39,938 bases of DNA from Gammaproteobacteria bacterium (GTDB taxonomy: Bacteria > Pseudomonadota > Gammaproteobacteria > GCA-001735895): contig JASJCI010000011.1 of NCBI GenBank assembly GCA_030066085.1, forward strand, positions 1 to 39,938, given 5' to 3'. Under the pieces are notes generated by a model that searched no databases, was not told the DNA's origin, and saw nothing but the letters and a program-made list of their open reading frames with translations. Both the position numbers and the translations under genes were made by a program. Below, piece by piece: positions 2,712 through 39,938 of this stretch (its first letter is position 1; each line of letters starts with the position of its first letter).

Positions 2712-3341
2712 ATGACCTCGACCGCAACCATGGGTGACGCGCGCGGCGAACTTGCCGGCGAGTCGCACCGTATAGGTCCCAATGCCATCACGCAACTCGC
2801 AGCCGCCATCGAATCGCATCGCGACGGTGATGCCCTGTACCGCGTGTTCAAGGATGCGGGAATCGTCGACTACCTGGACACACCCCCCGGCGAGATGGTC
2901 GACGAGCACGAAGTTTGCCGACTGCATCACGCGCTGCGCAACCGCGTCGGATACGCAAGCTATCGCGGCATCGCCCGGCTGGCGGGCAACCTGACCGGGG
3001 ACTACCTGCTCGCCAATCGAATTCCGGGATTTGCCCGCCAGGCGCTGCCGCGTATGCCTCGAACCCTGGCATCGCGCATTTTGACTCGCGCCATCGAGCG
3101 CAATTCATGGACTTTCGTCGGCAGCGGACGATTTCACTGGCTGATCAAGCAAGGCAGCCCGGTACTGATCATCGAAGACTCACCGCTGGCACGCGGCTGC
3201 AGCCTGCCCGGCCCCGCCTGCGATTATTATGCCGGGACCTTCGAGCGCCTCTATCGGCAGCTGAGCAGCCACCAGGGGACGCTGCAGGAGACATCCTGCA
3301 TTGCCAACGGCGCGGAGGTATGCCGCTTCGAGTTCGACTGA
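2712..3341 (+). CDS. bchJ: BchJ, V4R-domain protein of bacteriochlorophyll synthesis
   Basis: About 209 residues matching the BchJ/V4R (4-vinyl reductase) family. The C-terminal half carries the typical small-molecule-binding V4R pattern, with GSPVLIIEDSPLARG and a final ETSCIANGAEVCRFEF. BchJ was first assigned 8-vinyl reduction. Later work points to an accessory role, perhaps presenting porphyrin substrate to the cyclase, which fits its place directly behind bchE. ATG 2712 is preferred; an in-frame TTG at 2703 would add three residues. The gap to bchE is only 14 bp, so the two are co-transcribed. Confidence 0.88.
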   Translation: MTSTATMGDARGELAGESHRIGPNAITQLAAAIESHRDGDALYRVFKDAGIVDYLDTPPGEMVDEHEVCRLHHALRNRVGYASYRGIARLAGNLTGDYLLANRIPGFARQALPRMPRTLASRILTRAIERNSWTFVGSGRFHWLIKQGSPVLIIEDSPLARGCSLPGPACDYYAGTFERLYRQLSSHQGTLQETSCIANGAEVCRFEFD

Positions 3342-3387
3342 GCGGCTTCGACCGCATCCGGTATCTCTCTCAGGGAAGACCATACAA

Positions 3388-4290
3388 ATGATTCAGATCA
3401 GCTACATCAGCACTCCCAGCAAAGCCTTCACCTCGGATGAGCTCAAGGATTTGCTCAACAGCTGCCGACGCTACAACCGGGACCACGGGGTCACCGGCAT
3501 GCTGCTCTACTACAACTCGATTTTCCTGCAGGTACTCGAGGGCGAGGAAGAAGAGATCGACTCACTGCTCGAGCGCATCAAGCAGGACGAGCGTCATACC
3601 GATCTCAAGCTGCTGCGCCGGCGAGAAATCGAGCAGCGCGAGTTTCCGGACTGGTCGATGGCCTTCAGACGATTGACCGGCGAGCACTTCAGCGCGATCC
3701 CGGAGCTGAGCATGGTCGATCCGTCCGAACTGATCGACAGCGCCGATCTCGACAACAGCGATGTGGTCGACAAGGTCGTCGAACACTTTCGCAAGGAACA
3801 GAAACGCGAGCTGGGCCAGGAAGACCTTTCGCTCGACGATCCCGACCCGCTGATCAACAGCCTGCACCGGATCATCCGCCACATGGTCCGGGTGGTTGCC
3901 GTGCTGATGGTATTCACGATTTTCTGGGGTGTCATCGACGTCGTTTACGTGCTCTACACGCGCGTGCTGAGTCCGGCGATCAACGAATTCGTCGTGCGCG
4001 ATATCATCATCGTGTTCGGCGCTTTTCTAACGGTGCTGATCGCGATCGAGATTTTTATGAACATCACGCTCTACCTGCGCGATGACGTGATTCACATACG
4101 CCTGGTCATCGTCACCGCGTTAATGGCGATCGCACGCAAGGTCATCATTCTCGATTTCGAAAAGGTCGAGCCGATGTACATGTTCGCCACCGCGGCTATC
4201 GTCGTAGCACTCGGCATCACTTACTGGCTGGTGGGCGGCAAGACCACCCTGGAACGCCTGTCGTCGCATACCGGCGGCCCCTCGAATTGA
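3388..4290 (+). CDS. BLUF photoreceptor fused to a PsiE-like membrane domain
   Basis: A 300-residue protein. Residues 1-95 are a BLUF blue-light FAD domain. Tyr6, Asn30, Gln48, Trp89 and Met91 each lie exactly 15 positions before AppA Tyr21, Asn45, Gln63, Trp104 and Met106, so the flavin-switch residues are intact. An acidic linker (about 105-155) follows. Residues ~160-285 hold four hydrophobic segments and resemble the phosphate-starvation protein PsiE (E. coli PsiE has ...[21 protein letters not shown]; here IHIRLVIVTALMAIARKVII). The start is ATG 3388 after CAGGGAAG; the frame is open further upstream but overlaps bchJ. Blue light probably acts on a membrane output; what that output does is unknown. 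It may be co-transcribed with bchE-bchJ. Confidence 0.88.
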   Translation: MIQISYISTPSKAFTSDELKDLLNSCRRYNRDHGVTGMLLYYNSIFLQVLEGEEEEIDSLLERIKQDERHTDLKLLRRREIEQREFPDWSMAFRRLTGEHFSAIPELSMVDPSELIDSADLDNSDVVDKVVEHFRKEQKRELGQEDLSLDDPDPLINSLHRIIRHMVRVVAVLMVFTIFWGVIDVVYVLYTRVLSPAINEFVVRDIIIVFGAFLTVLIAIEIFMNITLYLRDDVIHIRLVIVTALMAIARKVIILDFEKVEPMYMFATAAIVVALGITYWLVGGKTTLERLSSHTGGPSN

Positions 4291-6923: not shown

Positions 6924-6993
6924 TGTAGGTTATTGTGGACACATTAAATTGTCAAGTTATATTAGCACTTGACTGTGTCAATTTATCCTTACA
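6924..6993 (-). promoter_or_regulatory. Triple PpsR/CrtJ boxes upstream of pucBA
   Basis: Three 18-bp boxes repeat with a 26-bp period, 8 bp between each: 6924-6941 TGTAGGTTATTGTGGACA (perfect TGT-N12-ACA), 6950-6967 TGTCAAGTTATATTAGCA (one mismatch, GCA), and 6976-6993 TGTCAATTTATCCTTACA (perfect). The regular phasing supports the middle degenerate box. They should mediate aerobic and light repression of LH2 by the PpsR encoded at 36225-37580. Confidence 0.8.
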
Positions 6994-7097: not shown

Positions 7098-8243
7098 CTA
7101 CAGGCCGCGGTAAAAGTCTGTCAGCACTGGCAAGCCTAGCGCCGAAGACAGTGGTGTTGGATTCTTCGACAGCAGCGGTAATCCGAGCAAACTACCCTCG
7201 TTCGGCTTGTCCTTCAAAACCTTCAGGTTCAGCAGCGAGGACAGGGGTGCCGGGTTGCTGCTCAACAGCCCCATGCCGAACTTCGACGACAGGGTCCAGT
7301 CATGCCGCATCAGTGGTGCGAACATGCTCGACAGGAAACTCAGGCCGCTCGACAGCACTCCCAGCCCGAACAGGCTCGACAGTGGTGCCGCCCGGTTTCG
7401 AATCACCCGCCGATGTTTGAGCGGTGCATAATCCCGGCTGTCGTTACGTCCGCTGATCAGCGGTATGCCGAAAAAACCGGACAGCGGCGCAGCATTGTCG
7501 GACAACATGCGAAATCCCATCGAGCGCGTCCAACCCGCTCCGGATTTGCCCGATTTGGTCGACAGGCCGATCATCGACGACAGCGGCGCCGGGTTCGACG
7601 ACAGCATTCCCATGCCGAATTTCGACGACAGGCTGTAGTGCGGATCACCCAGTTCGCCAAACATGCGCGCCAGGAAACTGTGCCCGCTACTCAGCGTCTT
7701 CAGGCCCAGGGCCGAGGACAGTCCGGAGCGATGATTGCTGAGCACGCCAAGTCCCAGCGCCGACGACAGCGGCGTGGCCTGCTTACTGATCGGAACGAAC
7801 TCGAGATCTGGCCGGGATGCCTGCATTGAATCATCGAGTTTGAGCGGCGTAAATGCGTCCATTACCTGGATCGCCTTCATTGCCGCGCCGAATGCCGGGC
7901 TTACCGCCAGCAGCGCGTAGCCCTGGTCAACGTAATCCAGGTAATACCGGGCGTCGGCACCAATGATTGCTCCCGCCTTCACTGCTGAAGACAGGTCATC
8001 TCGCGAGAGATTTGTGGTACCGGCATCTGCAGACGCCGCCGCGGGAGTTTCTCCCGCCGGAGCCATGCCCGGCGCCTGGTAGGCCGAAATCTCACTGCCA
8101 TAGGTTGGCGCCGGGGCCGGTTCGGGTTTGCTTTCGGGAATCAGCAACGCGATTATGCTTTTGCTGAAATTCTTGTCGACCAGCGCCTGGTAGGCTTCAC
8201 GCGCTCGGTCCCCATCCTCATATATTCTAACGACTGCTGCCAT
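7098..8243 (-). CDS. LSS-repeat protein of unknown function upstream of LH2 genes
   Basis: A 381-residue protein I do not recognise as a named family. Residues ~2-36 (AAVVRIYEDGDRAREAYQAL) and ~88-132 (AGAIIGADARYYLDYVDQGY) together resemble the two halves of the general-stress 17M/YflT domain, split by a Pro/Ala-rich insert (37-80). Residues 156-381 are about ten copies of a motif like PLSS-x-x-G-L-x-x-LSS, at 158, 174, 204, 220, 253, 287, 317, 333, 350 and 364. Residues 174-227 and 287-340 are an ungapped 54-residue duplication (about 34 identities by eye). There is no signal peptide or long membrane span. The start is ATG 8243 with GGAGG 6 nt upstream; the frame is open for 14 more codons. 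Between idi and pucBA it could be an antenna-associated scaffold, but this is inference. Confidence 0.85.
   Translation of the reverse strand: MAAVVRIYEDGDRAREAYQALVDKNFSKSIIALLIPESKPEPAPAPTYGSEISAYQAPGMAPAGETPAAASADAGTTNLSRDDLSSAVKAGAIIGADARYYLDYVDQGYALLAVSPAFGAAMKAIQVMDAFTPLKLDDSMQASRPDLEFVPISKQATPLSSALGLGVLSNHRSGLSSALGLKTLSSGHSFLARMFGELGDPHYSLSSKFGMGMLSSNPAPLSSMIGLSTKSGKSGAGWTRSMGFRMLSDNAAPLSGFFGIPLISGRNDSRDYAPLKHRRVIRNRAAPLSSLFGLGVLSSGLSFLSSMFAPLMRHDWTLSSKFGMGLLSSNPAPLSSLLNLKVLKDKPNEGSLLGLPLLSKNPTPLSSALGLPVLTDFYRGL
7224..7385 (-). repeat. 54-codon internal repeat, copy 2 (residues 287-340)
   Basis: Encodes PLSSLFGLGVLSSG... through ...NPAPLSSLLNL. It aligns without gaps to the copy at 7563-7724. 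The best conserved block is LSSKFGMG(L/M)LSSNPAPLSS. The copies differ mostly in the linker (FLSSMFAPLMRHDWT versus FLARMFGELGDPHYS). Confidence 0.8.
7563..7724 (-). repeat. 54-codon internal repeat, copy 1 (residues 174-227)
   Basis: Encodes GLSSALGLKTLSSG... through ...NPAPLSSMIGL and pairs with 7224-7385. Two shorter, more diverged motif copies separate the long copies, so the array probably grew by duplication of a multi-motif block. Confidence 0.8.
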
Positions 8244-8370
8244 AGCGTCCTCCGCTTGCGAGTCTGCCCTTCCGGGTTCCGGCATTATGCCAGGACCGGC
8301 AAGAACATTCGTTTCGAAATCTTATTTCAACTAATCCCATGAAGTTCGCCGCCCCACTTTTGCCGGTTTT

Positions 8371-9003
8371 TCAGCCCGCCGCCCGGGAGCGGCGATCCCG
8401 GTCGATGACCCATCTGAAATCCCGATATTCGTCCTGCCTGAACCGCTCCCATTCGAGCAACATCCAGGGTGTGAACTGTTCAGGTTGCCGATCGATGCGA
8501 GTTTCGATCTCATCGATTGCCACCCACTCCCAGTCCTCGACCTCATTCGGGTTGGCCACCACCGGGTAGTCCAGCGGTACACAACCAGCGAATACTTTAC
8601 ACAACTCGTTTTCACTACCCACGTCTTCGAAACTGGCGGAGTAGATGAACTCGTAAAGCAGACTGAGTTCCGCTTTGACGCCAAGCTCTTCATCGAGGCG
8701 TCGATGCACGGCGGTATCGGCCTGCTCACCACGGCGCGGGTGACTGCAAACGCTGTTACTCCAGTAAAGCGGCCACAGCGGCTTTTGCGCACTGCGTTTT
8801 TGTAGCAGCACACGGAAACAGGGCGATACCAGGAAGATCGAAAACGCACGATGCAATCGGCCTGCACCCCGATGCACATTGATCTTGGTATCGTAGCCGG
8901 TGATATTGTCCTCGCCATCGACCAGTATCAACAGCTCATCGTCGGAGGAGACCTCGCGGCGGTGCAGCTCGGTCGGGCCCGGCGAAAGTTGCTTGTCATT
9001 CAT
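8371..9003 (-). CDS. idi: Isopentenyl-diphosphate delta-isomerase, type I
   Basis: A 210-residue Nudix-fold enzyme that interconverts IPP and DMAPP, feeding carotenoid and phytyl synthesis. Features: NVHRGAGRLHRAFSIFL with a metal-binding His, SNSVCSHPRRGE with the catalytic Cys (of the family motif NTCCSHP), the Nudix segment HRRLDEELGVKAELS, and EDWEWV. It lies between the puf genes and the LSS-repeat gene. In Rhodobacter the homologue sits next to bchP, so its place is rearranged here. The ATG at 9003 lacks a strong ribosome site. Confidence 0.93.
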   Translation of the reverse strand: MNDKQLSPGPTELHRREVSSDDELLILVDGEDNITGYDTKINVHRGAGRLHRAFSIFLVSPCFRVLLQKRSAQKPLWPLYWSNSVCSHPRRGEQADTAVHRRLDEELGVKAELSLLYEFIYSASFEDVGSENELCKVFAGCVPLDYPVVANPNEVEDWEWVAIDEIETRIDRQPEQFTPWMLLEWERFRQDEYRDFRWVIDRDRRSRAAG

Positions 9004-32676: not shown

Positions 32677-33096
32677 TCAGACCATCTCGCGAAACAGCGT
32701 CATCAACTGCCGCGTCTTCGACATTTCGTGAAACAGTTCGCGCGGGCCCAGTCCCTCCTCGAGAAAACGCGAAAATCCCGGCAGCCGGGCGACATCGATT
32801 TCGTCGAGCTGCACGAAGCCCATGCGCCAGTCTTCGAATTCCCGCGCTTCGATCGAACCCTCGAACAGGAGCTCGACCCGCTGATGGCGATCGTCTTTGC
32901 AAATACGGGTGAAAAGGTCACGCACAACCTGCTCCTCGCCTTCGAGCACCTGGAAAAAGGAGTGCTCGCGGTGCAGCAACAAACCGGTCAGGTCCTGCTG
33001 TTCGTTTTCCCTGCGCGCCGATTCGAGCAGTTCCAGCAATTCGGCACCCGGTAACGGGCGGGTTTCGGTACTGACATATCCCAGGTGAAACAGCAT
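32677..33096 (-). CDS. Short BLUF-domain blue-light photoreceptor
   Basis: A 139-residue stand-alone BLUF protein. Tyr7, Asn31, Gln49, Trp90 and Met92 all lie 14 positions before their AppA counterparts (Tyr21, Asn45, Gln63, Trp104, Met106), so the flavin photoswitch should work. The C-terminal ~40 residues are helical and carry no known output domain, as in BlrB/PixD-type proteins that act by protein contact. It is divergent from the heme oxygenase gene and shares its PpsR boxes. It may modulate PpsR as AppA does; this is inference. Confidence 0.9.
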   Translation of the reverse strand: MLFHLGYVSTETRPLPGAELLELLESARRENEQQDLTGLLLHREHSFFQVLEGEEQVVRDLFTRICKDDRHQRVELLFEGSIEAREFEDWRMGFVQLDEIDVARLPGFSRFLEEGLGPRELFHEMSKTRQLMTLFREMV

Positions 33097-33202
33097 GATG
33101 ATTATCCAGGGCTCCGTGCGGTTCGATGCGGCCGGATCGAGCCATCGAAAAATAAGGCTGGGATTCGATTACTACCGGGTGCAGGCTTGCCGGCATCGCA
33201 AC

Positions 33203-33245
33203 TGTCTTATATAGTTTACATGAAATGTGTGAGTTTTTCTTTACA
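33203..33245. promoter_or_regulatory. Paired PpsR/CrtJ boxes between BLUF and heme oxygenase genes
   Basis: Two perfect TGT-N12-ACA boxes: 33203-33220 (TGTCTTATATAGTTTACA) and 33228-33245 (TGTGAGTTTTTCTTTACA), 7 bp apart. They end 10 bp before the heme oxygenase ATG at 33256 and begin 106 bp upstream of the BLUF start. This is the only pair here with both boxes perfect. It places chromophore supply, and perhaps the BLUF gene, under PpsR. Confidence 0.78.
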
Positions 33246-33255
33246 TAATTCCATC

Positions 33256-34002
33256 ATGCCACTGGACACTCTCCCACACCGTGGCCGGCGCGAGTGCAAA
33301 GCCAGCCAAACAGGCCTGACCCGCCAACGCATCGGCGCCGCGAAAACGCTGGCCGCCGGCGAGGCAAGCCGCGAGCCGTCGCTTGCGGCGGCGCTCAAGC
33401 AGCACACCCGGGATGCACACAAGCGCGCCGAGACCAGCGGCATCATCCGTCAACTGGTGCGTCGCCAGGCGAGCCGAGCCGGCTATATCACCTACCTGGC
33501 TAACCTGCACCCGGTATACCTGGCGCTGGAACGGCGCTTCGTCGGACTGACGCGCCATCCCCCGTTCGACATCATTGCTCATCCCGCGCTGCATCGGCAG
33601 CACGCGGTCGAAAACGATCTCGATGCGTTGGCGAGCAACAGCTGGCGCTCGAGGGGTGCACTGCAACCGGCCACGCGGGCCTACATCCGCCGCATCGACA
33701 ACGCCGACGAAGCACAGCTGGCGGCACATGCCTACGTGCGCTACCTCGGCGACCTGAATGGCGGCGCTATCATCAAGCGCCTGTTGCGAGATTCGCTGGA
33801 GCTCGCCGAGGCCGAGCTGATGTTTTACGAATTCGGCGGGATTGCCGACCGTGCAGCCTTCTGTGACCAGTTCAGGGCTGCCCTCGACTCGCTACCGAGC
33901 AGGTATGACGCCGAACGTATTCTCGACGAGGCCCTGGTCGGATTTCGGCTGGCAACCGAGCAGTCGATCGAGGTCGAAGCGAGCACTGTTACCATCGCCT
34001 GA
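33256..34002 (+). CDS. Biliverdin-producing heme oxygenase
   Basis: About 248 residues. It opens heme to biliverdin, the chromophore of bacteriophytochromes. Family motifs: LKQHTRDAHKRAETSGI with the proximal His, AGYITYLANLHPVYLALE, and YVRYLGDLNGGAIIKRLL with the distal-helix glycines. I choose ATG 33256 because the upstream ATG 33220 lies inside the PpsR boxes and the first ~35 residues are already variable. It is convergent with the bacteriophytochrome gene (20-bp gap), which needs its product. Confidence 0.93.
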   Translation: MPLDTLPHRGRRECKASQTGLTRQRIGAAKTLAAGEASREPSLAAALKQHTRDAHKRAETSGIIRQLVRRQASRAGYITYLANLHPVYLALERRFVGLTRHPPFDIIAHPALHRQHAVENDLDALASNSWRSRGALQPATRAYIRRIDNADEAQLAAHAYVRYLGDLNGGAIIKRLLRDSLELAEAELMFYEFGGIADRAAFCDQFRAALDSLPSRYDAERILDEALVGFRLATEQSIEVEASTVTIA

Positions 34003-34022
34003 AAGCACCGCAGTCACGGCGG

Positions 34023-36200
34023 CTATTCCTCTTCCCGGCTCAGCTCCAGCAGTTTGTGCAGCAGCTCGCTGGTGTTCGAAACCGAGCTGCGAATCGAATC
34101 CAGCATTACCGGCAGCGACTCGACATCCATGTCGTCACTGACCTCCATCGCGGCCAGCTTGGCGTTATTGACCGCCGACGACAGCAGGTTGCGATACAGC
34201 AGCTCGCGCCGGGTGCTGGGCGCGTCCTGGCTGTCGGCAACGATAGCGACGATGCTATTCTGGAACTGTTTCTTGCCGAGCTCGATTTTCAGGCGGTCGG
34301 TAATATCGACGAAAAACAGCACGTAACCGAGGACCCGGCCCATTTCGGCAAACACCGGGTCGGCCCGCAACAACAGGGTATGCTGCTCGCTGCCCGAAGA
34401 CCTGATCTTCAGTTCGGCGCGCCCGGTATGCTGGTCGCGCAGCAGAATCTCGACCAGGTCGCGCATCTTGTCCTGGTTCTCGAACACCTGCGGCAAGTCG
34501 TACACGCTGCGCAACTCGGCGTGGTTTTCCGGCAGGACCTGGTAAAAGGCATCGTTGACCAGCAGCAGGCGCCCGGAACGATCGGCTACCACCACCGGCT
34601 GTTTCGCCTCGCGCACCTCGCTGGTGAGCTGACTGATCTGGTCCTGCGCAATCAACAGGCGCACGGCACGAAACTGGTAGACCATGTCTTCGATCGATTG
34701 TCCGACCCGGCGCGCGGCCATCAGTTCGGTCGTCGACCAGGCATCCGCAGTGCCCTCGACCATCTCGTACCAGCGGGCAAACGATCGCCGCGGCGATAAA
34801 TCCTCCGGGCTGTCACCGATCTCGTGCGGCTCGTTCGGATTACCGCCCCAGGCCACGGTATGGCGCCGCTCCGGGCGAAACCAGAACAGGTACTCGCCGC
34901 CGGAACGCGAAACCGGCACCGCGATCACGCCGCTCGCGACCGGGATCATCGAGCGGAATTCCGGCACATCGAGGCCCAGCGAGCGGGTCGAATACAGTCC
35001 GCCCGGCGAATGCTCGTCCATCCAGCGAATGAGGCCCTTGATATCCTGGGTAGCGGGCACTTCTCCGTCGGTATGAATCTGGCCCTCGAAGGCCAGTGCC
35101 GCACCGGTTGCATTGACCAGCTTGAGCAACTCCTGCGACTTGGAAAAGAGTGCGCTCTTCCATTCGCCCTCGCTGGCAATGGCCTCGATGATGCGCTTTT
35201 CGACCAGCCTGAGGAACACCTCGGTCTCCGACTTGGCATAACCTTCCAGCGCCGCGATACGGGTGGCCAGCATTTCGGCCAGCAGCACTGCGGCGGTACG
35301 CACCTCGATACTGACGTGGCGTTTGTCGTAATGGTGACAGGACACCAGCCCCCAGAGCTTGCCCCCCACCAGCAGCGATACCACGAGCGTAGACGCCACC
35401 CCCATGTTGCGCAGGTACTGCAGGTGTATCGGCGATACGCTGCGCAGCTGGCACAGCGACATGTCCAGTGCGCTGCCGTTTTGCGGCGATTGCGGCGGGG
35501 ATACCGGCACCGGCTGGTAATCGACGTCGACCAGCATCCGAATCCGGTTGACCTCGTACAGCCGTCGTGCCATCTGCGGAATATCGGTGGCGGGGTAGTG
35601 ATTGCCCAGGTAGGGTTCGAGATCGTCCCGGCGCCGCTCCGCAATGACCTGGCCGTGCCCGTCCTGGTCGAAGCGGTACAGCATGACCCGGTCGTAACCC
35701 GTAAGCTGCTCGAAGATCCGGGCACCGTCTTCGAACAGGTCCCGCAGGGTCAGGGCGGATACGATCGACTGGAACGAACGCTCGACGAAAGGCGTCAGGT
35801 CTCCCCCCGATCCGGCCGGCTCGAACTCGATTATAATTCCGGCAGGGCCGTCCGGATGTACGCAGATATCGAAGACTCGCGGCCGCTCGACACCGAGCTT
35901 GATTCGCAGCAATCGCGTCGAATTGCTGGCGCTGCCGTCACCGAGCCAGGCCTCCAGGTCGCGCGCGAGCCCAGCGCTGAGGTCGGCGAGCTGGCGCCGC
36001 GGTACGGCCGCGGGATTATCCAGTTCACGCGCGGCGTTGTCGCTCGCCTGCAGTATCTGCAGGTCGGTCGCGCGCACCACCAGCATACAGCCGTGCGGCT
36101 GAATCGAGCCCGGCAGGTGAATCTGCTCGCGCTCGCAGTTGGACAGCGTCGCTTCACCGAATGCGGGTGAGTCATCGGGATGCGCGGTGCTATCGGTCAT
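34023..36200 (-). CDS. bphP: Bacteriophytochrome with PAS output, no kinase domain
   Basis: A 725-residue red/far-red photoreceptor. Order: N-terminal extension with biliverdin-binding Cys22, PAS (about 25-125), GAF (about 140-310) with YPATDIPQMARRLY, PHY (about 330-510) with the tongue motif LSPRRSFARWYE, then a PAS domain (about 550-665) and a ~60-residue helical tail. There is no HATPase or His-kinase catalytic domain. This PAS-GAF-PHY-PAS layout recalls the Bradyrhizobium ORS278 BphP that relieves PpsR repression in far-red light. It lies 24 bp behind ppsR in one operon, which supports the same role here. Confidence 0.93.
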   Translation of the reverse strand: MTDSTAHPDDSPAFGEATLSNCEREQIHLPGSIQPHGCMLVVRATDLQILQASDNAARELDNPAAVPRRQLADLSAGLARDLEAWLGDGSASNSTRLLRIKLGVERPRVFDICVHPDGPAGIIIEFEPAGSGGDLTPFVERSFQSIVSALTLRDLFEDGARIFEQLTGYDRVMLYRFDQDGHGQVIAERRRDDLEPYLGNHYPATDIPQMARRLYEVNRIRMLVDVDYQPVPVSPPQSPQNGSALDMSLCQLRSVSPIHLQYLRNMGVASTLVVSLLVGGKLWGLVSCHHYDKRHVSIEVRTAAVLLAEMLATRIAALEGYAKSETEVFLRLVEKRIIEAIASEGEWKSALFSKSQELLKLVNATGAALAFEGQIHTDGEVPATQDIKGLIRWMDEHSPGGLYSTRSLGLDVPEFRSMIPVASGVIAVPVSRSGGEYLFWFRPERRHTVAWGGNPNEPHEIGDSPEDLSPRRSFARWYEMVEGTADAWSTTELMAARRVGQSIEDMVYQFRAVRLLIAQDQISQLTSEVREAKQPVVVADRSGRLLLVNDAFYQVLPENHAELRSVYDLPQVFENQDKMRDLVEILLRDQHTGRAELKIRSSGSEQHTLLLRADPVFAEMGRVLGYVLFFVDITDRLKIELGKKQFQNSIVAIVADSQDAPSTRRELLYRNLLSSAVNNAKLAAMEVSDDMDVESLPVMLDSIRSSVSNTSELLHKLLELSREEE

Positions 36201-36224
36201 GCGGGTTTGCCGGTATGCGAGCTG

Positions 36225-37580
36225 CTAGTCAGCGTCACGATGGGTGTCGATACCGTAACGCGCGAGCTTGTCGTAAAGCCCCTGGCGGCTCACGCCGAGC
36301 ATGCGCGCGGCGGCGGTGCGGTTATCGTCAGCCGCTTCCAGTGCAACCTCGATGTAGTAGCGTTCGACCAGGCCGACCGCGGTCGACACGATCTCCTTCA
36401 GCGATGCCTGTCCCAGCTGCGACGACATTTCGCGCAAAAACTGCAGCAGCATGCTCGCCTCGTCGGCCGACTCGAGTCGCCGATCGATATCGCGCGCGTA
36501 GAGCACGATAAAATCGCTGTCCGCGCGGGATTTCATCACCGCCGATATCTCGGCTCGCCTGCGGCTGCCCAGCTCGCCCCGAATCGTGGTCGGATACTGG
36601 CGCACCAGTCCGCACAGCCGCAAACTGTCGAGCAGCATTTTCCAGTCCCCGCCGGGACTGCCGATCCAGCGATTCATCGAGCTGCCGGCAACGGTTGCTA
36701 TCGTGGATTGTTCGATCAGGTCGAGAAAAGACTGGTTTGCGTCGAGCACGAGCCCGCGATCGTCGAGCAGGGCGATCCCGTCGGGCGCATACTCGAAAAC
36801 ATCGCTGATCGAGTAAGACACCTTGACCGTGCTGCCGTGCCTGATCGACGAATCGCCGGTCGACATCAGGTGCACCAGCAGCAGGTTTTTCTGCTCCTGC
36901 TCGAGCAGTCGGGCGCTCAACATGTAGCTCTCACCGCGATCGCCGACGCTGACCAGCATGCGCGGCGCGGTACCGTGCTCGCGCGCGCGCACCAGCGTCG
37001 CGGTGACCATCTCGCGCTCGCCCACGGTAATCGCCTCCAGCAGGCTCGAATCGAGCCCGCCCGACTCGCTGCCACCCGCCAGGTCCAGCACCAGGATGGC
37101 CGCAGGATTGGCCTCGGTCACGACAAAACACTGCGCATCCACCAGCAGCAGCGGATCGCTGGAAGCCTCGTACAGCGAACGGTAACGCGATTCGAGCTCA
37201 CGCATCTTCCAGTAGTCGCGCTCCATCGACTGCCGTGCCGCGGCCAGGCGGGACTGCAGGTTGGCAACCACGCGCACGTCGCGCCCCACCGCGACGACTT
37301 CATCGCTGTCCGGGCTGCGCACCATCAGGTATTCGAGCGGCGCCACCAGGCCGCTGGGAAAACGCTGGCTCAGGTGAAAAATCGGGGTGACGCCATCGAT
37401 GCCGGAACTGTGCACGAGCTCGGTCAGCGCGGCCTGGTCGATACCCGCCAGGGTTTCCGCCCAGGGTCGCCCGACCCAGTGGTCGACCGTCTCTTCCGAC
37501 AGCTCGTTGGCAGAGGTGGCTTCGCGCACGACACAATCGGAGTCGAGCACGATCCTGATGTCAGGGACCAGGGTGTTCAT
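36225..37580 (-). CDS. ppsR: Photosynthesis gene repressor PpsR/CrtJ
   Basis: A 451-residue transcription factor. A first PAS-like domain (about 1-115), a coiled linker (about 110-140, RQSMERDYWKMRELESRYRS), two further PAS domains (about 140-240 and 258-370), and a C-terminal Fis-type helix-turn-helix (DNRTAAARMLGVSRQGLYDK, 419-438). It binds TGT-N12-ACA sites such as those listed here. The only cysteines are 16, 151 and 323; none lies in the HTH, unlike the redox Cys420 of Rhodobacter CrtJ. ATG 37580 is chosen over an ATG 12 codons upstream. A 14-bp perfect palindrome (37592-37605) lies in its leader. Confidence 0.95.
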   Translation of the reverse strand: MNTLVPDIRIVLDSDCVVREATSANELSEETVDHWVGRPWAETLAGIDQAALTELVHSSGIDGVTPIFHLSQRFPSGLVAPLEYLMVRSPDSDEVVAVGRDVRVVANLQSRLAAARQSMERDYWKMRELESRYRSLYEASSDPLLLVDAQCFVVTEANPAAILVLDLAGGSESGGLDSSLLEAITVGEREMVTATLVRAREHGTAPRMLVSVGDRGESYMLSARLLEQEQKNLLLVHLMSTGDSSIRHGSTVKVSYSISDVFEYAPDGIALLDDRGLVLDANQSFLDLIEQSTIATVAGSSMNRWIGSPGGDWKMLLDSLRLCGLVRQYPTTIRGELGSRRRAEISAVMKSRADSDFIVLYARDIDRRLESADEASMLLQFLREMSSQLGQASLKEIVSTAVGLVERYYIEVALEAADDNRTAAARMLGVSRQGLYDKLARYGIDTHRDAD

Positions 37581-38097: not shown

Positions 38098-39291
38098 TCA
38101 GATGCGCGCAAATCCGAGCAGGTGCGCGAGATCCTTGACAAAGATTCGCAGGTGCGCGCCCGGCCGTGCCCGCACTAAGCGCTTGTGCATGTAGGCTTCC
38201 CAGGTCAGGTGCTGCACGTCCGGATCGGCACACATGCTGACGAAGCGCTCGCGGCGTTTATCGCTCGAGTACCAGAACTTCTGCATGATGCCGAGAATCC
38301 AGAACACCCGCCCGTGGGCGCGCATGAATCGACGCCGCGCCTGGGCCAGGGCCTTCGGCTTGCCACTGTGCAGGTATTCGAGCGAGGCTTCGGCCGCCAG
38401 TCGACCGCTTTCCATCGCGTAATAGATGCCCTCGCCGGAAGCCGGCGCCACTACCCCGGCGGCATCGCCGGCAAGCACCACGTTACGCCCGTCGTCCCAT
38501 TTCTTGCGCACCCGCAGCGGGATCGGCGCACCCTCGCAGCGAATGGTCTTCGAACCCTCCAGCGCCGCAGCGCTGCGCAGGTCCGCGACCGCACCGCGCA
38601 AAGAGAATCCCTTGTGCGCGCTGCCGGCGCCGACGCTGGTCTTGTCGCCGTGCGGGAAAACCCAGCCGTAAAAGTCCGGCGACAGGCGCCCCTGGTACCA
38701 GACATCGCAGCATTCGCCGTCGAAATCGTCTCGCTGCGGTGACTCGATAATTTCGTGGTAGGCCGCAACCGAAGGCGGCGGCGCTTCCTCCGGAATGGCT
38801 GCGCGGGCAACCGCCGAGCGCGCGCCGTCGGCGCCCACCAGTGCGCGCGCGAGGATGCTGAATTTCGGTCCCCTGGATTTTGCGGAAGTATCGCTGCACT
38901 CGATACGCACCAGGCCATCGTCCTGCTGCTCGAGAGACTCGAACCGCGCTCGCCGAACCTCGGCACCCGCGGCCGCGGCCCGCTCGCGCAGCCATGGATC
39001 GAACACTTCGCGATCGACCATACCGACAAAACCGCCATCGATCGGCATGTCGACCCGGCGGCCGCGCGGTGAAACGATGCACGCCGAGCGCGCCCGCGCC
39101 GCCAGCAGCGCGGGCGGTATGTGAAAGTCTTCGATCAGCCGCGGCGGAATGGCACCCCCGCAGGGTTTGATACGACCGCCGCGCTCGAGCAACAGGACTC
39201 GTTTGCCGCTGCGGGCTATTTCGGTCGCGGCGGTAGCACCGGCGGGGCCACCGCCGACCACGACAACATCGTAGACTGGTTCTGCCGACAT
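38098..39291 (-). CDS. bchP: Geranylgeranyl reductase (BchP)
   Basis: A 397-residue FAD-dependent reductase that saturates the geranylgeranyl tail of bacteriochlorophyll to phytyl. FAD motif VVVVGGGPAGATAATEIARS, then ERGGRIKPCGGAIPPRLIED, YGWVFPHGDKTSVGAGS, and the second FAD motif VVLAGDAAGVVAPASGEGIYYAM. Its ATG overlaps the stop of the upstream transporter gene by one base. A 150-bp spacer separates it from the small membrane protein downstream. Confidence 0.96.
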   Translation of the reverse strand: MSAEPVYDVVVVGGGPAGATAATEIARSGKRVLLLERGGRIKPCGGAIPPRLIEDFHIPPALLAARARSACIVSPRGRRVDMPIDGGFVGMVDREVFDPWLRERAAAAGAEVRRARFESLEQQDDGLVRIECSDTSAKSRGPKFSILARALVGADGARSAVARAAIPEEAPPPSVAAYHEIIESPQRDDFDGECCDVWYQGRLSPDFYGWVFPHGDKTSVGAGSAHKGFSLRGAVADLRSAAALEGSKTIRCEGAPIPLRVRKKWDDGRNVVLAGDAAGVVAPASGEGIYYAMESGRLAAEASLEYLHSGKPKALAQARRRFMRAHGRVFWILGIMQKFWYSSDKRRERFVSMCADPDVQHLTWEAYMHKRLVRARPGAHLRIFVKDLAHLLGFARI

Positions 39292-39938
39292 CAGGTTTTT
39301 CCTCGTGCCATTTGGACGAAGTCGGCATCACCGACCACGAGCGATTGAGATTGATTTGGAGAAGTCGCGCACAGCGCGCGGTTGACACCGACACCGAGCA
39401 ACGCCGCGGCAATGAACAGCAGTGCCTCGCCGCTGAAAACGGTGGCATAGGCAACCGCGGGATCCTGCACGAACACGCGCGTCAGGTCGATTGCAAGGGT
39501 GCCGATAAAACCGCCGAGGGCAAACGCAATCGCCTGCGCCGCACCCCAGAGCCCCATGCGCAGGCCTTCCCGGTTACCGCGCCCGCGGCCTGCGAGCGTC
39601 ATCATGGTCGCGATCGCGGCTACCGCAAACGCACCGTTGGCAACGCCCAGCGCGAAAACGATCGGTGTCAGCGGCCAGCTCGCCGCGTTCAGCCCACCAA
39701 ACGAGATGGTCAGCAACGCGGTCGCCGACGCCAGGCAACCGCCGACGGTCCACAGGCGCAACAGCTGGTTGCGGCGGGCTTTCAGCAGGCTGCCGCTGAG
39801 CGCGACCAGCAGCATTCCCATGAGCACCCCACCGTGCTGCACCCCCGACAGGCTCGTGGACTCGCCCGGCGTCATGCCGTACACGGTACCGGCAAATGGC
39901 TCGAGTATCAGGTCCTGCGCGCTGTAGGCGAGCATCGA
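39291..39938 (-). CDS. PucC/LhaA/Bch2-family transporter, C-terminal part (truncated by window edge)
   Basis: The last ~214 residues of a BCD-family membrane protein. It carries the family signature AQDLILEPFAGTVYGMTPGE, then about six membrane segments and GLRMGLWGAAQAIAFALGG. The N-terminal half lies beyond the right edge. Position just before bchP matches Bch2/Orf428 of Rhodobacter; LhaA is the other option. It is translationally coupled to bchP (TGATG). It is a clear paralogue of the pucC product at 4909-6351. Confidence 0.88.
   Translation of the reverse strand, partial: SMLAYSAQDLILEPFAGTVYGMTPGESTSLSGVQHGGVLMGMLLVALSGSLLKARRNQLLRLWTVGGCLASATALLTISFGGLNAASWPLTPIVFALGVANGAFAVAAIATMMTLAGRGRGNREGLRMGLWGAAQAIAFALGGFIGTLAIDLTRVFVQDPAVAYATVFSGEALLFIAAALLGVGVNRALCATSPNQSQSLVVGDADFVQMARGKT

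Follow-up and report, generated by a model that had tools for sequence, protein, structure and literature searches.

The window analyzed here, a stretch of DNA of 39,938 nucleotides, contained half of a photosynthesis gene cluster. Its genes followed the order bchE, puf, bchXYZ, crt, and bchIDO, then crtE, crtF, a BLUF gene, a heme oxygenase (HO) gene, bphP, ppsR, and bchP, where some of the gene names rest on gene order. The HO gene (33256 to 34002, forward strand) was divergent from the BLUF gene (32677 to 33096, reverse strand) across a common region of 159 bp delimited in the sequence (33097 to 33255), and the two genes thus use the same promoter region, as the earlier note had claimed. 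On its other side, HO was convergent with bphP (34023 to 36200, reverse strand), tail to tail, with their stop codons 20 bp apart. The bphP gene shared its strand with ppsR2 (36225 to 37580, reverse strand) and was separated from it by 24 bp, which bears out the claim that the phytochrome is encoded together with ppsR.

The HO product was assigned to the biliverdin-forming HO-1 type, with matches to the Pfam family PF01126 (E-value 1.5e-43) and to the Heme oxygenase 1 chain 1we1 (E-value 4.4e-32). Its proximal His and the GDLNGG sequence of its distal helix (GDxxGG) aligned with HO-1. Heme oxygenase turns heme into biliverdin, and the reaction requires oxygen. Downstream of 33256, the frame offered no ATG, GTG, or TTG before the conserved core (33376), and the GC fraction ahead of 33256 fell to about 0.23-0.33; the ATG at 33256 is the most likely start. 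A second, unlinked heme oxygenase, which the earlier note had named as evidence against its proposal, was not found in the 4.39-Mb genome by a search for PF01126 members, as distinct from HugZ- and IsdG-type enzymes; at a completeness of 96.6% in 85 contigs, a second HO could escape detection. The BLUF gene encoded a single-domain blue-light sensor of 139 aa (PF04940, E-value 6e-30), in which Tyr7, Asn31, Gln49, Trp90, and Met92 occupied the customary flavin-pocket positions as judged by eye.

The bphP product was an RpBphP1-type bacteriophytochrome of 725 aa (PHY domain E-value 4.1e-51). It contained the N-terminal Cys22 and the PAS-GAF-PHY-PAS9 arrangement followed by a two-helix tail, and it lacked a kinase. 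It shared a sequence identity of 51% with RpBphP1 and scored 660 bits against it, versus 332 bits against the next different solved phytochrome. The two-helix output tail was conserved when compared by eye with relatives. These features of the sequence support BphP as a true RpBphP1 relative with a predicted PpsR2-binding output tail and a bilin Cys. RpBphP1 binds RpPpsR2 under 760-nm light, and its two-helix tail was proposed as the contact to PpsR2 after such illumination (PMC6899989). By analogy, given the 51% identity, a Pfr ground state and a far-red-induced binding of PpsR2 would be expected for BphP. No second gene with a PHY domain was found in the 4.39-Mb genome.

Besides the ppsR2 gene, whose product scored 348.7 bits against TIGR02040 (cut-off 275.4), a second PpsR/CrtJ-type gene, ppsR1, was found between bchG and bchF on another contig (C32), with a higher score of 474.6 bits. 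This gene, located elsewhere in the genome, was missed in the first reading of the window. A quick tree separated bphP-linked from bchG-linked PpsR proteins with an SH-aLRT support of 100; the PpsR of the window fell in the bphP-linked group and that of C32 in the bchG-linked group, where the long branch of the former (1.89) makes its placement less sure than the split itself. A redox Cys near the helix-turn-helix (HTH) was kept in PpsR1 and replaced by Tyr in PpsR2. The contig of the window (C70) terminated inside a PUCC/MFS gene identified by Pfam (39291 to 39935), and positions 1 to 290 of C32 read as the N-terminal part of an MFS/PUCC gene. No sequence overlap was found between the end of C70 and the start of C32. 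Since each contig ends in apparently the same MFS/PUCC gene, they are probably neighbors, giving the order ppsR1-bchG-MFS-bchP-orf-ppsR2-bphP, and the alternative that C70 is a stray contig was weakened.

Two perfect TGT-N12-ACA palindromes were identified by pattern search and by a position weight matrix (PWM) in the region between BLUF and HO, which upheld the claim that two perfect PpsR boxes precede the heme oxygenase gene. Box 1 (TGTCTTATATAGTTTACA) spans 33203 to 33220 and box 2 (TGTGAGTTTTTCTTTACA), 7 bp past it, spans 33228 to 33245. The pair sits 11-53 bp ahead of the HO start codon; its distance to the start of BLUF is 107-149 bp. A perfect pair with a spacer of 6-10 bp never arose when the 159-bp region was dinucleotide-shuffled 20,000 times, and the window as a whole contained 11 TGT-N12-ACA matches versus 3.95 expected. 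The PWM was derived from the remaining boxes of the photosynthesis cluster in this genome, with the HO boxes left out. It gave the HO boxes scores of 20.1 and 19.1, the seventh and eleventh highest of the window and within the range of the bch, crt, and acsF promoters; outside promoter clusters, no score exceeded 12.3.

Across the genome, boxes were counted by pattern searches rather than by the PWM. The perfect pair with a 7-bp spacer (N7) occurred only once, ahead of HO, and was absent from the control. Pairs with an 8-bp spacer (N8) and at most one mismatch were found upstream of bchG and of an operon on contig C74 that includes an acsF-like gene, at four sites of the window (6924-6993, 18186, 22156, and 30548), and once on C32. 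By gene, they preceded bchG, crtC/bchC, crtI, crtE/dxs, and the acsF-like operon, or lay at the 6924-6993 cluster. The match on C32 (7664-7707) is GC-rich and lies inside a long frame taken as bchH from gene order, and it looks like a chance occurrence. As the N8 pairs otherwise fall at photosynthesis genes, the motif is specific to such genes in this genome. The pair on C74 is a perfect one (L103, 2121-2164), and the acsF-like call comes from a reading of the protein rather than a family search. Since this pair precedes an acsF-like operon on a separate contig, PpsR control probably extends past the main cluster. The 6924-6993 site forms an array of three boxes in 26-bp steps, located between a PUCC gene and two frames (7098-8285 and 8331-8918) with no Pfam match.

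A sigma-70-like promoter was predicted on the forward strand at 33187 to 33215, composed of TTGCCG (33187-33192), a 17-bp spacer, and TATAGT (33210-33215). It matches the consensus at 9 of 12 positions, a consensus match being its whole basis, and two other candidates were predicted in the same region. The predicted -10 element falls inside box 1, which fits the layout expected of a repressor that blocks the polymerase. Because of the above-chance tandem palindromes and their position over the predicted promoter, PpsR control of HO, as put forward in the earlier note, is very likely.

Scanning with an RpBphP1-type profile retrieved 80 loci from alpha-, beta-, and gammaproteobacteria. The ppsR2 gene preceded bphP in nearly all of them, and HO was found near bphP in 48, as in the window. 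The upstream neighbors of HO varied among these 48 loci: same-strand puf genes in 16, ppsR2 facing away in eight, bchF facing away at about 1.3 kb in ten loci of the Bradyrhizobium/Rhodopseudomonas type, bchZ and bchI in one each, and no assigned neighbor in the other 12. In two bchF-type loci that were read, an aerR-like gene of the B12-binding kind occupied the gap in the same orientation as HO. PpsR-like sites lay close to the start of this gene, and similar site pairs were located at the corresponding place in the remaining loci of this type. A search of the window's genome with a Bradyrhizobium aerR-like query returned no AerR, in a family that may diverge fast and with no positive control for the query.

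The strict search for perfect pairs upstream of HO in the relatives was supplemented by the PWM. A box scoring at least 12 within 350 bp upstream of HO was found in none of the 47 relatives with usable sequence, whereas such a box preceded ppsR2 in 28 of 75 relatives, versus 2.4% of background tiles; a PWM derived from the boxes of one genome may miss weaker or divergent sites in relatives, though it does detect theirs before ppsR2. The window showed the reverse, with a score of 20.1 before HO and about 0 before ppsR2. Boxes before HO were accordingly dropped as a conserved part of the module. The HO of the relatives may be placed under PpsR through read-through. The site pair of the window is thus real and specific, and it belongs to a known type of module with a wiring absent from 47 comparable loci.

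The closest parallels are RpBphP1-PpsR2 of Rhodopseudomonas palustris and BrBphP-PpsR2 of photosynthetic Bradyrhizobium, which likewise have two PpsR genes with the phytochrome beside ppsR2. They resemble the genome of the window in the order ppsR1-bchG-MFS-bchP-ppsR2-bphP, in the convergent HO beside bphP, and in the redox Cys described for PpsR1 only in most strains of both. In contrast, their HO follows the aerR-like gene with PpsR-like sites ahead of that gene, while the HO of the window is divergent from BLUF and is preceded by a tandem pair of boxes of its own. The analogy to Bradyrhizobium drawn in the earlier note was sustained in part: the gene order through ppsR2, bphP, and HO agrees, but since the Bradyrhizobium HO follows an aerR-like gene and lacks strong boxes of its own, the wiring from box to HO lies outside the conserved system. 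The HO boxes also resemble the tandem CrtJ/PpsR sites of purple bacteria, where two close TGT-N12-ACA palindromes lie at the predicted promoter, except that they are 7 bp apart, where the other pairs of the genome have a spacer of 8 bp. A spacer change from 8 to 9 bp alters the redox response in Rubrivivax (PMC4452267).

Taken together, we consider it rather probable that HO belongs directly to the PpsR regulon, that far-red-activated BphP relieves PpsR2, and that biliverdin loops back to the sensor. By occupying both boxes, PpsR would mask the -10 element and the transcription start and keep HO low. The enzyme would supply biliverdin, the chromophore of the only phytochrome found in the genome. 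Under far-red light, BphP would bind PpsR2 and lift the repression, as was shown for R. palustris, and HO would then rise together with the bch, crt, and acsF genes. With no box near ppsR2-bphP, feedback on the sensor would act mainly through chromophore supply, and in the light the sensor could contribute to its own assembly. Of these steps, regulation of HO by PpsR stands most firmly and the loop of light and chromophore is the least certain; relief of HO repression by far-red light is likely if PpsR2 is the PpsR that acts. Because HO needs oxygen, chromophore supply would require some of it, and this need may limit the loop. With bchE in the cluster and what appears to be the aerobic cyclase on C74, the genome has a combination that would be fitting where oxygen levels vary.

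The identity of the PpsR at work on HO bears directly on this reading. The recognition helices of the two proteins are nearly identical (GLSRQSLYSKL and GVSRQGLYDKL), so that by sequence either could act. HO may instead be controlled along with the cluster by the bchG-linked, probably redox-sensitive PpsR1, in a feed-forward with photosynthesis where BphP and PpsR2 play a minor part. PpsR1 is present, is the stronger family match, and has the Cys next to its HTH, and both PpsR proteins repress in R. palustris, while PpsR1 is an activator in Bradyrhizobium (PMC10569730). PpsR2, however, adjoins HO and bphP here and in most related clusters, and control by PpsR1 appears unlikely, though it is the most serious of the rival explanations.

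The purpose of the control may also differ. Heme and bacteriochlorophyll draw on common precursors, and a PpsR-controlled HO might adjust heme and so make tetrapyrrole flow and iron available to bacteriochlorophyll synthesis while the photosynthesis genes are expressed, with the chromophore as a side effect. The position of HO among photosynthesis operons, and after the puf genes in many relatives, would suit such a role. We regard it as improbable, as most relatives place HO next to bphP, an arrangement in favor of the chromophore role, and the genome yielded exactly one HO and one phytochrome. Least probable of all, and very unlikely in our judgment, is that the boxes act chiefly on the divergent BLUF gene or are the remnant of a rearrangement and do not influence HO. 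BLUF does use the same 159-bp region, and the relatives lack boxes at the corresponding place, but both boxes are perfect, agree with those at the cluster's remaining promoters, and lie over the HO-side promoter, at least 107 bp from the BLUF start.

Direct PpsR control of HO with feedback through biliverdin, if it works, would amount to a known module being rewired specifically in this lineage, because the HO of relatives lacks a strong box while their ppsR2-bphP is often boxed. A more elaborate version, which we hold as speculative, is that PpsR feedback was moved from ppsR2-bphP to biliverdin supply, where the 7-bp spacer may confer its own redox response or cooperativity and BLUF may add a blue-light input. 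To our knowledge, control of chromophore supply by the sensor's own circuit has rarely been established for bacterial phytochromes. With one HO, one phytochrome, and a clear site pair, this question is testable with few mutants. The locus also suggests that regulatory sites can shift between genes of one module while gene order is unchanged. Among the listings of open-access searches, no paper pointed to PpsR control of a heme oxygenase; an earlier description is possible.

Within the order, pufM was found in one of 41 genomes, and an HO above the cut-off likewise in one of 41. Searches with HO in the genus and the order revealed no photosynthesis cluster in the 40 other genomes, and the best match of a class-wide HO search (genome G286) lay outside any photosynthesis cluster; hence, no close relative was available for footprinting. 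This would reflect either a recent gain of the cluster here or its loss in the other genomes. In Congregibacter and other NOR5/OM60 clusters, a single-domain BLUF lies in or beside the photosynthesis cluster, near ppsR or acsF (PMC2654016, PMC3176799), and the paper on Congregibacter KT71 makes no mention of a phytochrome or heme oxygenase. Two further BLUF genes were observed in the genome of the window: a 329-aa frame near bchE (3301-4290, forward strand) that combines a BLUF domain (PF04940) with a PsiE-family domain (PF06146), and a third BLUF gene on contig C45.
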